In this document: positions 25,916-33,396 of the stretch, piece after piece
How positions within the stretch are numbered: position 1 is the stretch's first letter
Layout of the letters: each line of letters starts with the position of its first letter
Source of the DNA: Pseudomonadota bacterium
Lineage (GTDB): Bacteria; Desulfobacterota; Binatia; Binatales; Binataceae
DNA: 64,000 bases
Assembly (NCBI GenBank): GCA_021324855.1
Contig: JAJPIG010000015.1
Location: 310,001 to 374,000, forward strand
Direction of reading: 5' to 3'
The notes under the pieces: model-generated
The model's input: only the letters and a program-made list of their open reading frames with translations
Databases searched by the model: none
What the model was told of the DNA's origin: nothing
Position numbers and translations under genes: made by a program

Positions 25916-26788
25916 TCACAAAATCCGGCCGGCGCCGGCGGTGAGATCGCGAATCGGCCAGCGGCCCGACTCCACCTGATGAAAGAACTCGCCGACGATG
26001 CGGTTGAACAGCTCCGGTTCCTCGAGGTTCAGAGCATGCCCGGTGCGCGGCAGAATCGCGAGCCCGGCTGACGGGATCGTCCGCTTCAGCATCAGCGCCG
26101 GATCGAGACACGGTTCATCTTCATCGCCGCACATCACCAGCGCCGGCACAACCAGCCGGCTCAGCCGCTCGGTCATCTCATAAAGCGACGGCCGCATCTT
26201 CTGCACGCCGCGCAGCGTCATCGCAGAGCCGACCGGCGAATGCTCGGCAAGATTGCGGACGAACTCGGCGAAGCCGCGCGGGTCCTTGTCGCGCAATTGG
26301 AGGCGTCCCGGACCCTGCGCGTAACGTTCCGCCGACGCGGTCATCGGGAGCGTATCGAAACGCTGTGCGGCAGCCTCGGCTTCGGCCTGGAATTGCGCGC
26401 GCTTGGAGGGCTCCGCGCCGTAGCCGCATCCGCCGATCACCAGCGAGCGCGTGAGCTCCGGGTAGTTAAGGCCGAAATGAAGCGTCGCAAAGCCACCCAT
26501 CGAGATGCCGACCACGTGCGGCCGATCGAGCTCGAGCGCCGCAATCACCGCTTTGATATCGTCGCGCGCGCGATCCTGCGAATAACGCGCGAGGTCATCG
26601 GGGACATCCGAAGGCGGGTAGCCGCGCGCATTGTATGCAATGCATCGATAGCGTCGCGCGAAGCAGCGCATCTGCGGCTCGTAGCTGCGCAGATCGCCGG
26701 CGAACTCGTGCACGAAAACGATCGGGATTCCGCTTCCCGCTTCTTCGTAGTAGAGCCGCACTCCATCGTCGGTCGTGATGTAAGGCAT
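25916..26788 (-). CDS. Alpha/beta hydrolase
   Basis: A 290-residue alpha/beta-hydrolase-fold enzyme. The catalytic triad is visible: Ser in GISMGG near residue 96, Asp in CGDEDEP near 226 and His in RTGHALNLEEP near 252. HEFAGD near 27 supplies the oxyanion hole. The arrangement suits C-C bond, ester or amide hydrolases of aromatic pathways (for example BphD-, PcaD- or NicD-type), but a single substrate cannot be chosen. AGGAGAAAC precedes the ATG. It is monocistronic on the minus strand, divergent from the cyclase-family gene. Confidence 0.85.
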   Translation of the reverse strand: MPYITTDDGVRLYYEEAGSGIPIVFVHEFAGDLRSYEPQMRCFARRYRCIAYNARGYPPSDVPDDLARYSQDRARDDIKAVIAALELDRPHVVGISMGGFATLHFGLNYPELTRSLVIGGCGYGAEPSKRAQFQAEAEAAAQRFDTLPMTASAERYAQGPGRLQLRDKDPRGFAEFVRNLAEHSPVGSAMTLRGVQKMRPSLYEMTERLSRLVVPALVMCGDEDEPCLDPALMLKRTIPSAGLAILPRTGHALNLEEPELFNRIVGEFFHQVESGRWPIRDLTAGAGRIL

Positions 26789-26887: not shown

Positions 26888-27664
26888 ATGGCGCAAGTGC
26901 TTGCCGATCTCGTCGCAGGTTTGGCTGCCGGGCAGGTGAAGGTCGTCGACCTGACCAAACCTCTCTCGCCCGAGACGCCGATCATCCCGCTGGGTCCGCC
27001 GGCCAAGCAGCCTCCTAATATGGTGATCGAGACCAACAACAAGTACGACTCGCGCGGACCAACCTCGTACTCGAACACGCTCCACGTGTGGGAGCACACG
27101 GGCACGCATTTCGATGCGCCTATCCATTGGGTCACCGGCAAGGACCTGCCGAACAATGCTTGCGACACGATCCTGCCGCAGAAATTCATCGGACCTGCGT
27201 GCGTGCTCGATATGACCGCGGAGGCGGCGAAAAATCCCGATTTCCTGCTCATGCCCGAACACATCCACGAGTGGGAGCGGCGGCACGGCCGGATTCCGGC
27301 GGGCGCGTGGGTGCTGATTCGAACTGATTGGAGCAAGCGTGAAGGCGCGGCGTTTCTCAACGTCGATGCCAATGGCGCGCACAGCCCGGGGCAGCACGTT
27401 TCCGCGTCGAGATTCCTCGCGTATGAGCGCGACGTGATCGGCCTAGGCGTCGAGACGGTCGGCACCGACGCCGGGCAGGCCCATCGCTTCGATCCGCCGC
27501 TGCCGAATCACTACACGATGCACGGCGCGGGCAAGTTCGGTCTCGCGAGCCTTTGCAATCTCGATCAGTTACCGCCGACCGGCGCGGTCGTGATCGCGGC
27601 ACCGCTCAAGATCGTGAATGGAAGCGGCAGCCCGGCGCGGGTGCTGGCTTTGGTCGCGAACTAA
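26888..27664 (+). CDS. Cyclase-family metal hydrolase (kynurenine formamidase-like)
   Basis: A 258-residue PF04199 protein. The defining HTGTHFDAPIHW motif is near residues 71-82, with probable metal-binding His and Asp. Family members include bacterial arylformamidase KynB and isatin hydrolase; many others in catabolic clusters are uncharacterised. It would hydrolyse an amide, lactam or formamide in the cytoplasm. An AGGAGG-type site precedes the ATG. The neighbouring minus-strand hydrolases make this a local hydrolase-rich segment. Confidence 0.83.
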   Translation: MAQVLADLVAGLAAGQVKVVDLTKPLSPETPIIPLGPPAKQPPNMVIETNNKYDSRGPTSYSNTLHVWEHTGTHFDAPIHWVTGKDLPNNACDTILPQKFIGPACVLDMTAEAAKNPDFLLMPEHIHEWERRHGRIPAGAWVLIRTDWSKREGAAFLNVDANGAHSPGQHVSASRFLAYERDVIGLGVETVGTDAGQAHRFDPPLPNHYTMHGAGKFGLASLCNLDQLPPTGAVVIAAPLKIVNGSGSPARVLALVAN

Positions 27665-27671
27665 CCCTGCA

Positions 27672-28499
27672 TCAATGCGCGGCGATCCATCGGAGCGCGT
27701 GCGGCGCCCATGGGCCGTTCGGCTCGCTCGCGATGTAGCAGGCGCTGAAATGATTGCAGCCGGGGAGTACGATCCGCTGGACGTCGCCGCCCGCGGCGCG
27801 CAGCGCCTGCTCCATCAATTCGGCCTGGCGCGACAGATGCGGGAAATCGTCGCTGCCGTGCGAAATCAGGAACGGCGGCGGCGTCCCTTGGATATTGCAA
27901 ATGGGACTGGCCGGCGCGTCATGGCCGGAATCCGCCGGCCCCAAAAAGCGCGGGCGCATCGGAAGTCCGGCGCCTTCGCGGAAATCGTACACGCCCGACA
28001 TCGCCAGGCATCCGCGCACCACATCGCGCGGAAGACCCCGACGCTCCTGCCAATCGCGCCTGACTGCAAGCAAAGCGGTGTAATGACCGCCGGCGGAATG
28101 GCCGCCGATGAAGATGCGCCGCGAGTCACCGCCATAGCGGCTGATGTTTCGAACGAGCCATGCGACCGCATCGGCGACGTCGTCGTAGCCGGCCGGAAAC
28201 AGATGCTGCGGCGCGAGCCGATAGCCGATGCTCGCGAAGATGATCCCAGCCTCGTTGAGAATCGGCGCCATGAAGAGCAGATGCTCCTTGTAACCGCTGA
28301 CCCATCCGCCGCCGTGCGCCATCGCGACCACGCTGCCGTTGGGCTGCTTCGGAATGCATAGCGCGATGCTCTGATAGGGATTGGAGCCGTAGGAGACATC
28401 TTCGGCGATGACGCCGGCGCCGCGCTTCATTACCTCGGCGGCGAAGGCCTGGCCCGGTTCTGAGAGCGGCTCCTGGGGCGGATAGTCTTCTATACGCAT
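27672..28499 (-). CDS. Alpha/beta hydrolase, HSL/arylformamidase-like
   Basis: A 275-residue esterase-type enzyme. HGGGW near residue 63 supplies the oxyanion hole and GGHSAGGH near 129-136 carries the nucleophile Ser. A late Asp (GSDDFPH) and His (GCNHFSA) complete the triad. This layout is that of carboxylesterases and eukaryote-type kynurenine formamidases. The ATG at 28499 has AGGTGA upstream; a longer upstream frame lacks support. It converges on the cyclase-family gene with only seven bases between the stops. Confidence 0.84.
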   Translation of the reverse strand: MRIEDYPPQEPLSEPGQAFAAEVMKRGAGVIAEDVSYGSNPYQSIALCIPKQPNGSVVAMAHGGGWVSGYKEHLLFMAPILNEAGIIFASIGYRLAPQHLFPAGYDDVADAVAWLVRNISRYGGDSRRIFIGGHSAGGHYTALLAVRRDWQERRGLPRDVVRGCLAMSGVYDFREGAGLPMRPRFLGPADSGHDAPASPICNIQGTPPPFLISHGSDDFPHLSRQAELMEQALRAAGGDVQRIVLPGCNHFSACYIASEPNGPWAPHALRWIAAH

Positions 28500-28660
28500 G
28501 ATTTCACCTGCGCGCATTATGCGCCGCAGCTTCCGAAAGGCAAGCGTTGGTGCCTGCGACGCGCTGCGCATCGGAAACCGAGTCGTTGTATCATGGATGC
28601 CGGGGCAGGCGGGTAACTTCGACGGGCCGCGTAGCGGGCGCTTTTAGGAGGCATTGACCA

Positions 28661-29332
28661 ATGTGGCGCACAGGCTGCCTTGCGCTGATTGCCGTCCCTT
28701 TCGCTTTCATCACTACGCTCGCGTTCGGCGCGGTGGCGCAGGGCGCCGAACCGACGATGACCTTTCTGGTCGCGCGTCCCGAGATGCCCGATCCGCTGTT
28801 CGCGCAGACCGTCATTCTAATGCTGCCGCGCGAAACCACGGGCGAGGATTTTCCGCTGGTGGTCGGACTGATCGTCAACAAGCCGATCCGCGAGATCACG
28901 CTGCACAAGCTGTTCCCTAACAGCTCCGCGCTCAAGCAGCGATCCGACCCGGCGTTCTTCGGCGGACCGGTCGATATTGAGACTCCCGCGATCGTGTTTC
29001 GTGCGAACAAACCGATCGACAAGGCGGTCCGCCTGGCTGGAGACATCTATGTGAATCTCGACTCGGATCAGGCGGCCGCGCTGGCGCAGGATCCGAAGCA
29101 GGTCCGCGACTTTCGGCTGATTCTCGGGCGCTCGCAATGGAGCCCCGATCAATTGCATAGCGAGATGATGGAAGGCTCCTGGTACACCGTGAACGCGCCG
29201 GCCGACATTGTATTCAGCACCAACCCGGCGACCTTGTGGCACACGCTTGAGGCGCAGGCGCGGCTGATTCCGGCCTCCGTATCGAGCCAATCGCCGCTCG
29301 CGCCAGGTCTCGTGCTAATCCATGCGCCATGA
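28661..29332 (+). CDS. Secreted YqgE/AlgH-family (UPF0301) protein
   Basis: A 223-residue protein with the UPF0301 core (FLVARPEMPDPLFAQTVILM near residues 35-54, GLIVNKP near 69, FFGGPV near 100, GRSQWSPDQL near 156). Unusually, it begins with a signal peptide-like segment ending near AQGA at residue 28; typical AlgH proteins are cytoplasmic. The export prediction comes from the hydrophobic stretch at residues 5-24. TAGGAGGC precedes the ATG. The function of the family is not settled. Confidence 0.83.
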   Translation: MWRTGCLALIAVPFAFITTLAFGAVAQGAEPTMTFLVARPEMPDPLFAQTVILMLPRETTGEDFPLVVGLIVNKPIREITLHKLFPNSSALKQRSDPAFFGGPVDIETPAIVFRANKPIDKAVRLAGDIYVNLDSDQAAALAQDPKQVRDFRLILGRSQWSPDQLHSEMMEGSWYTVNAPADIVFSTNPATLWHTLEAQARLIPASVSSQSPLAPGLVLIHAP

Positions 29333-29345
29333 GGGGCGCCGTTGA

Positions 29346-29663
29346 TTACTTGCGCCAGGGCTTGCCGTTCGCGATTCCGTAATCGCGGAGCGGGTCGCCG
29401 AAGACCGTGATCCGATAGTCAGCGAAGAACTTATCGCTCGACTTTTGCGCGGCCTGATGCTGCGCGTTGTTGCGCCATGCGTTCAGCGCCTCGTCCGAGG
29501 CGAATTCGACGACCGTAAGCTCCTCGCCGTCGGAGGCGATGAAGGTTTTGGCCGCCACAAACCCGGGCGTTGCGGCCGCAAGCTTGAATAATTCCGAAGC
29601 CGACGCGTAGTACTCGCTGCGGCTGGCCTCGCGCGTATAGGTGCGAAAGATTACGGTGCGCAC
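29346..29663 (-). CDS. Antibiotic-biosynthesis-monooxygenase (ABM) domain protein
   Basis: A 105-residue alpha/beta-barrel protein of the ABM type. The pattern is the usual one: a RTYTREA start, GFVAAKTF near residue 34, ELTVVEFASDEALNAW near 48-63 and a HQAAQ helix. Such proteins can be cofactor-free monooxygenases or simple dimeric accessory proteins. It starts 20 bases after the stop of the NicX-like gene on the same strand, so the two are probably co-transcribed. A role with ring hydroxylation before NicX-type cleavage is a reasonable guess only. Confidence 0.72.
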   Translation of the reverse strand: MRTVIFRTYTREASRSEYYASASELFKLAAATPGFVAAKTFIASDGEELTVVEFASDEALNAWRNNAQHQAAQKSSDKFFADYRITVFGDPLRDYGIANGKPWRK

Positions 29664-29683
29664 AGGCAGGCCGGTCCGTTCCG

Positions 29684-30748
29684 CTAGCGCGCTTCCCGCT
29701 CGACGATCATCTTTTCGTCAACGAACTTGCCGTGATCGATGATTACCTGGTCATCCAAAGTTACCGTGCAATCGCGCATTGGGACATCGTAGTGACCCAG
29801 CGTGTTGCGCGTGCCGCCGCCGAGCGTGTTCGGTCCGGTCGAGAACAGGAAATTGCCCGGAAAGGCGCGCGCTGCGGCCCGCGACCGTTCGGGATCGTCG
29901 CCGTAAAGCGCGAGCGAGTCCCATCGTGCCTGAGGATTGAGCCCCCATCCGAGATGTGAGATCGCGTGGCCGTCCATGTCTTCGGGGAAGCGCCGGTTGT
30001 CCTCGAGCCAGTTGTTCATCAGCTTGGCGTCGAGACCGCCCTCGATGCGCCGGATGAAACCTTCGCGAATCTCGAGTCGGATTTCGTCCTGGACGTAGCG
30101 GCAGTAGGGCAGGATAACGATGTCGCCGCGCTGGATAACGACCGTGCCGTTGGCCGAGCCTTCATTCGGAAATGTGTGCACGTGGCCGCCTCCCCAATGG
30201 TCGAAACGGCCCGGCGCCTCGGAAAATCCATATTGGATCATGGTCGGGTATTCGCCGAGCTGGACGGTGAGATCGGTACCGGCGTCGCTCGTGACGCGCA
30301 TCTTCCTGGCCTGCTCCAGGCGCTTGCCCGCATAGATGGTTGCCTCCTTGAGTCCCGGCGGCGACATCAATTCGGCCAGATCGTCGGGCGCATCGATGAT
30401 CATCAGCACCCGCGTACCGGCATCGCGCACCTCCTTGAGCCACTTCGTGAAGAGCGGCACGTGCATGCAAACCAGCATGTCCGCATGCTTCAAGGCTTCA
30501 AGTGTGCCTTTGCATCGGCCGACCGTCTCGACCCCGACTTTGGTCCAGGTCGGGACCGAGTTGACGCACATTTCATAGACATCGGCGCCTAGGTCCTTGC
30601 CCGCGGCGAACGCAGCCGCGACATAATCGCGTCGCGTGGTGAGGTCGGTGAGCAGGGCAATGGTTTCGCCTTTCTGCACATTGCAGAGCTGGAATTCCTT
30701 GCGATACAGCATCGCCATCGTTGCGGGATTCACGACTTGCGGATTCAT
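29684..30748 (-). CDS. NicX-like 2,5-dihydroxypyridine 5,6-dioxygenase family protein
   Basis: A 354-residue metalloprotein of the M29-aminopeptidase-related dioxygenase group. Long stretches match what I recall of NicX: LGEYP...YGFSEAPGRFDHW near 164-185, ISHLGWGLNP near 263-272 and GNFLFSTGPN near 298-307. The three iron ligands are in place as H265, H319 and D321. NicX opens 2,5-dihydroxypyridine to N-formylmaleamate in nicotinate breakdown. The ATG at 30748 follows GGAG with eight-base spacing. It heads a two-gene unit with the ABM protein. Substrate is inferred by homology and needs proof. Confidence 0.82.
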   Translation of the reverse strand: MNPQVVNPATMAMLYRKEFQLCNVQKGETIALLTDLTTRRDYVAAAFAAGKDLGADVYEMCVNSVPTWTKVGVETVGRCKGTLEALKHADMLVCMHVPLFTKWLKEVRDAGTRVLMIIDAPDDLAELMSPPGLKEATIYAGKRLEQARKMRVTSDAGTDLTVQLGEYPTMIQYGFSEAPGRFDHWGGGHVHTFPNEGSANGTVVIQRGDIVILPYCRYVQDEIRLEIREGFIRRIEGGLDAKLMNNWLEDNRRFPEDMDGHAISHLGWGLNPQARWDSLALYGDDPERSRAAARAFPGNFLFSTGPNTLGGGTRNTLGHYDVPMRDCTVTLDDQVIIDHGKFVDEKMIVEREAR

Positions 30749-32676: not shown

Positions 32677-33396
32677 ATGATGGCGATTAATGGCGTGAGA
32701 CCGCGGGAGATGCGCCGCGATCCGTTCAAAGAGACGATTATCTGGGACATCGTGCCCGAACGGACTGCCCTCGTCGTCATCGATATGCAGAACGCCTTCC
32801 TGCACGAGAAGGGCCTTTTCTACGTGCCGGCCGGGATGGGCCTGGTGCCCAAGATCAACCGGGTCGCCCGGCTCTGCCGCGAGCGCGGCATCCTGGTGAA
32901 TTGGGTCGTGCGGCATCCGTATCGCGCCGATGGACTCGACATCGGCTACGAGCGCGACCTCTACCCGATCATGGTCGGGCATCCGGCGGGCTATACCGAG
33001 GACGGATGGGGCGCGCAGCTCGTGCCCGAACTCGACGTCGACAACAACCGCGACCTGATCGTACCGAAGACCCGCTTCAGCGCGCTGATTCCGGGCTCGT
33101 CGAATCTCGATCGGCTGCTTCGCTATCACGGCCGCGACACACTGATCATCATGGGCGTCGCGACCAATATCTGCTGCGGAACGACCGCGCGCGACGCGAT
33201 GATGCTAGATTACAAGGTGATCTTCGCTTCGGACGGCAACGCTGCGTTCGACCAATCGGTGCTCGGCAGCAAGGAACCCAGCATCATCCAGGAAGCCGAG
33301 CTGATGACGCTCCGGGCGTGCTTCGCGATGGTCTGCACGACCGACGAGCTGATCGACGAATTGAACAAGCTGCCGGTGCTCCCTTCCAATGCCTGA
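32677..33396 (+). CDS. Isochorismatase-family cysteine hydrolase
   Basis: A 239-residue amidase-type hydrolase with the D-K-C triad at D36 (VVIDMQNAF), K131 (VPKTRFS) and C166 (GVATNICCG). Family members hydrolyse isochorismate, nicotinamide, N-carbamoyl compounds or maleamate; NicF, the maleamate hydrolase, belongs here. The position two kilobases from the NicX-like gene makes an amide of ring-cleavage origin an attractive substrate. That is inference. GGGAGGACA precedes two adjacent ATGs; the second, at 32680, has slightly better spacing. Confidence 0.85.
   Translation: MMAINGVRPREMRRDPFKETIIWDIVPERTALVVIDMQNAFLHEKGLFYVPAGMGLVPKINRVARLCRERGILVNWVVRHPYRADGLDIGYERDLYPIMVGHPAGYTEDGWGAQLVPELDVDNNRDLIVPKTRFSALIPGSSNLDRLLRYHGRDTLIIMGVATNICCGTTARDAMMLDYKVIFASDGNAAFDQSVLGSKEPSIIQEAELMTLRACFAMVCTTDELIDELNKLPVLPSNA

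Follow-up and report, generated by a model that had tools for sequence, protein, structure and literature searches.

The closest described counterpart of the gene analysed here is NicX of Pseudomonas putida KT2440 (structures 7cn3, 7cup and 7cnt), the 2,5-dihydroxypyridine 5,6-dioxygenase reported to be the first pyridine-ring-cleaving enzyme with a solved structure (PMC7910607). NicX holds its iron through His265, Ser302, His318 and Asp320 and binds the ring N1 and O1 of its substrate through Glu177, and according to its authors no substrate besides 2,5-dihydroxypyridine has been reported (PMC7910607). In the window, by which we mean the whole stretch of 64,000 nucleotides that was analysed, taken from a genome assembly of 3.75 Mb in 38 contigs, a NicX-like gene is followed by a small gene for an ABM-domain protein and, further on, by an alpha/beta hydrolase gene of the BD-FAE type (Table 1). 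The reading favoured here, with moderate confidence, is that the NicX-like gene encodes a ring-opening Fe(II) enzyme of an uncharacterised NicX-sister subfamily, with a changed substrate, a BD-FAE hydrolase as partner and hydroxylases that vary between lineages.

Table 1. Features of the window around the NicX-like dioxygenase gene.
Feature	Coordinates	Strand	Remarks
NicX-sister Fe(II) ring-cleavage dioxygenase (predicted), 354 aa	29684..30748	-	NicX homology, fold, iron site
ABM-domain (YqjZ-like) small protein, 105 aa	29346..29663	-	GTG start; Pfam PF03992
YqgE/AlgH-family (DUF179) gene	28661..29332	+	Between ABM gene and hydrolase; not thought part of the system
BD-FAE/Abhydrolase_3 alpha/beta hydrolase	27672..28571	-	Probable start ATG 28499; recurrent clade partner

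The dioxygenase ORF is complete, with GAAGGAGCAAGGTCC 5' of its ATG start as a good to strong ribosome-binding site, and NCBIfam holds no model for it. Its likeness to NicX is far above chance: a sequence search of the PDB returns NicX (7cn3, E 4e-65) as the sole match of note, a profile search of the same database reaches NicX at E 6e-136, and the AlphaFold model used for structural comparison (mean pLDDT 86.8) matches NicX with Z 46.0 and 1.6 A rmsd over 340 residues. The next structural matches are the M29 aminopeptidases PepS, AmpS and AmpT (Z 20.8 to 22.2), and the crocagin biosynthesis proteins CgnE/CgnB (6zsu, 6zsv) also have the NicX/M29 fold, with Z of about 13 to the model. The original prediction of a NicX-like enzyme with an intact iron triad, in which H265, H319 and D321 align with the NicX ligands H265, H318 and D320, proved correct, though it had overlooked the fourth published ligand, Ser302 in NicX and Ser303 here. 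All four ligands are thus present, and the iron site is identical in 88 of 88 aligned homologues. Fold, length, the four ligands (H/S/H/D), His189 and Arg293 are common to both enzymes, whereas the dioxygenase differs from NicX in being only 37% identical, in belonging to a separate clade, in carrying Gln for Glu177 and Phe for His105, and in standing without nicD/E/F neighbours. Since the four-residue iron site of NicX is kept, the dioxygenase is most likely a non-haem Fe(II), O2-dependent enzyme that would open a hydroxylated aromatic ring, the cleavage being presumably extradiol-like, at a C-C bond adjoining a ring hydroxyl.

An IQ-TREE analysis of 68 proteins, which is unrooted, so that 'sister' denotes an unrooted split, yields three groups: the dioxygenase's own clade (100/100), the NicX side (99/92) and a third, called the far group here. 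The authentic nicE-nicD-nicX-nicF clusters of Azospirillum, Shinella, Caballeronia and Agrobacterium belong to the NicX side. Of the 55 members of the dioxygenase's clade, 53 have Gln at the position of NicX Glu177 (Gln172 in the dioxygenase); of the 25 proteins on the NicX side, 22 have Glu, and far-group members have Val or Gly. NicX His189 is mostly kept (His184 here). His105 was considered as a specificity marker and set aside: it is replaced by Phe100 in the dioxygenase, but enzymes of bona fide nic clusters usually have Phe there as well, so that Glu177 alone is informative. The far group (L095, L096, L101, L104-L106, L108 and L047:1103-2170) forms a third NicX-like subfamily, with His at position 105 and an intact iron site, and with no nic genes in reach of its loci.

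The clade outside the window's genus is almost entirely pseudomonadotan, and within the order the subfamily is present in one of 17 genera; from this distribution, the gene was probably acquired by the genus from Pseudomonadota via horizontal transfer. The nearest named relative of the window's genome is a congener, the metagenome assembly Deltaproteobacteria bacterium clean291 (locus L004). In the pair L033 and L031, a dioxygenase encoded on a contig of a Verrucomicrobiales MAG is nearly identical to one from an alphaproteobacterial MAG, a probable case of misbinning.

Gene neighbourhoods were counted within 8 kb in 55 clade loci and 25 NicX-side loci, and the counts should be read as a trend, and Fisher values computed from them as descriptive only, because many loci end at contig ends, relatives were picked by similarity to the dioxygenase and sister loci are non-independent. 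None of the 55 clade loci has a NicD, NicE or NicF homologue nearby, as against 14 of the 25 on the NicX side. A BD-FAE alpha/beta hydrolase is found in 21 of the 55, on the same strand every time, and the large subunit of a CoxL-type molybdo-hydroxylase in 24; a frequent order is TetR, dioxygenase, CoxG, CoxM, CoxS, CoxL, BD-FAE and a branched-chain ABC transporter. Other loci have hydroxylases of other kinds near the dioxygenase: a single-component FAD monooxygenase (L013, L020), an HpaB-like monooxygenase (L006), or a Rieske oxygenase alpha subunit of the benzoate/anthranilate type, followed by a small gene and, 34 nt on, the dioxygenase (L005). In L010 and L015, a bifunctional salicylyl-CoA 5-hydroxylase scoring above the NCBIfam cut-off lies 18 to 53 nt upstream, and such an enzyme is also encoded nearby in L047; loci of the L010/L015 type hold the closest relatives of the dioxygenase outside its genus.

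The separate clade, the change of Glu177 to Gln and the lack of nearby NicD, NicE and NicF mean that 2,5-dihydroxypyridine cannot be assumed as the substrate, and the label 'dihydroxypyridine dioxygenase' first given to the gene is not established. Because Glu177, which in NicX holds the ring nitrogen and the C2 oxygen, has become Gln across the subfamily and nicD/E/F are absent, the substrate is probably not, or not solely, 2,5-dihydroxypyridine, although Gln could still hydrogen-bond a pyridone. The clade's conserved partner is present in the window, outside positions 29346-30748, to which the original prediction had been confined. This BD-FAE hydrolase is 46 to 59% identical to the operonic BD-FAE proteins compared with it directly and is the sole ortholog in the genome, the next best copy reaching 30%; encoded on the same strand as the dioxygenase, it would probably hydrolyse the ring-opened product. 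Against such a partnership, the link is missing from many clade loci, including that of the nearest congener, and in the window the YqgE gene stands between the genes. The ring hydroxyl would be supplied by each lineage's own hydroxylase, of the molybdo-, flavin, Rieske or salicylyl-CoA 5-hydroxylase type; in the window's organism, the gene for it would lie at another place in the genome. What speaks against this supply is that, among ten of the genome's 12 MoCoBD genes, identity to the operonic molybdo-hydroxylase was at most 35%, none of the ten being an ortholog. Both genomes of the genus, the window's own and the congener's, encode a full-length protein that resembles salicylyl-CoA 5-hydroxylase but scores under the cut-off of that family.

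Two further genes of the window were weighed as Nic counterparts and rejected. The isochorismatase at 32677..33396 matches NicF weakly (E 6e-6), is nearer to 3irv and RutB and is found in no other clade locus; the alpha/beta hydrolase at 25916..26788, considered as NicD, has a homologue above threshold in no other clade locus. Adjoining the BD-FAE hydrolase, a PF04199 cyclase gene (26888..27664, plus strand) of the kynurenine formamidase-like family encodes a possible amide hydrolase, and it too is found in no other clade locus.

That the dioxygenase is a diverged NicX, still acting as a 2,5-dihydroxypyridine 5,6-dioxygenase, with the BD-FAE hydrolase deformylating N-formylmaleamate in place of NicD, is a serious contender but on balance rather unlikely. 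Iron site and fold are identical, His189 is kept and Gln at position 177 can still bind an amide. The molybdo-hydroxylase operons of relatives would suit azaarene alpha-hydroxylation, which has been proposed for the conversion of 3-hydroxypyridine to 2,5-dihydroxypyridine (PMC6525221), and a homologue of NicE (69%) as well as a gene resembling NicF (38%) are present in trans in the genome. The separate clade, the near-universal loss of Glu177 and the absence of nic genes from every clade neighbourhood nonetheless argue against it, as does the presence in the same genome of a NicX-side paralog with Glu177. The genome holds three family members, the window's dioxygenase and those at C36:176419 and C36:281246. 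The last of these (C36:281246..282262; L003/L059) resembles the dioxygenase in family and iron site but belongs to the NicX side, is 50% identical to NicX and retains Glu177, and is thus the truer NicX; an alpha/beta hydrolase gene lies directly downstream and the NicF-like gene 9 kb off. With this paralog, NicE and the NicF-like gene at hand, the ordinary 2,5-dihydroxypyridine route could therefore run without the dioxygenase. Genes of the hydantoinase A and ornithine cyclodeaminase types are also found near this paralog. The other paralog (C36:176419-177450; L002/L058), 45% identical to the dioxygenase, is a long-branched member of the dioxygenase's clade, has the unusual substrate site Phe104, His177 and Gln189 (NicX numbering) and stands beside P450, enoyl-CoA hydratase, MFS and luciferase-like genes.

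The variety of the neighbouring hydroxylases, some of them of benzenoid type, raises a more speculative idea, namely that some or all of the clade's enzymes open not pyridines but carbocyclic 2,5-dihydroxylated rings, which may be CoA-bound (e.g. gentisyl-CoA-like). We hold this to be improbable, though it draws on the salicylyl-CoA 5-hydroxylase placed so closely ahead of the dioxygenase in the closest relatives outside the genus, on the Rieske oxygenase of L005 and on the change in the residue by which NicX recognises the nitrogen of the ring. The titles and abstracts searched describe no NicX-like enzyme acting on gentisyl-CoA; if the carbocyclic idea were true, the clade would represent a new class of dioxygenases that cleave benzenoid rings and are built on the NicX/M29 fold. 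A broad and transferable sister clade that shares the iron site of NicX and differs from it in a substrate residue and in its gene partners offers a direct test of what governs substrate choice in the family.

The ABM gene had been proposed to work with the dioxygenase, its product hydroxylating a pyridine whose ring the dioxygenase would then open, and we consider such a functional two-gene unit very unlikely. Both ORFs are present on the same strand, the ABM gene starting, as described, 20 nt after the dioxygenase stop, and spacing and strand make co-transcription plausible. The ABM domain scores above the Pfam cut-off (PF03992, 26.8 bits against a gathering cut-off of 23.1), and other clade members do adjoin ring hydroxylases, though of other families. 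The ABM fold is by itself no proof of monooxygenase activity, however; the protein's nearest solved relative is YqjZ (2go8; 84 residues aligned, E 1e-8), which is functionally uncharacterised, and YqjZ-type proteins are not linked to NicX-like genes elsewhere. Conservation of the pair, on which the original prediction had staked the idea, was not found: a tblastn search of 51 loci from other genomes, the congener's among them, detected no ABM homologue, and neither an order-wide genome search nor a local HMM gave a second dioxygenase-ABM pair. A PF03992 scan of 25 genomes gave about 60 ABM places, among which the window's alone adjoins a NicX-like gene, and ABM homologues occur in relatives without the dioxygenase. 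The congener, whose dioxygenase is 87% identical, keeps the upstream synteny (OsmC, MlaC and a small ORF) but has DUF1329 and UbiD genes on the other strand after the dioxygenase in place of the ABM gene, and its ABM homologue (60%) is encoded on a separate contig, at the contig end and beside a P450-like gene. Since no second case appears in the loci, the congener or the 25-genome scan, the pair seems lineage-specific and may be a chance adjacency; the titles and abstracts searched likewise describe no NicX-ABM pairing. In the route favoured here, from hydroxylase through dioxygenase to BD-FAE hydrolase, the ABM gene would be a lineage-specific neighbour standing outside.

Finally, it is scarcely credible that the dioxygenase is an M29-type aminopeptidase, as a frequent label of its plasmid relatives ('leucyl aminopeptidase') would have it, for although PepS, AmpS and AmpT share the overall fold (Z of about 22), their identity to the dioxygenase is merely 10-15%, Pfam PF02073 scores 10.2 bits against a gathering cut-off of 27, the PDB profile search gives NicX without any M29 chain, the structural match to NicX is far closer and the NicX iron ligands are invariant, so that sequence rules out a placement among these peptidases. 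Recognition of the sister clade would help to mend such labels, which are common in the family: many bona fide NicX-side genes (plasmid matches H9, H12, H17 and others) are labelled 'leucyl aminopeptidase' or 'hypothetical protein', some of them within nicE/nicD/nicF clusters.
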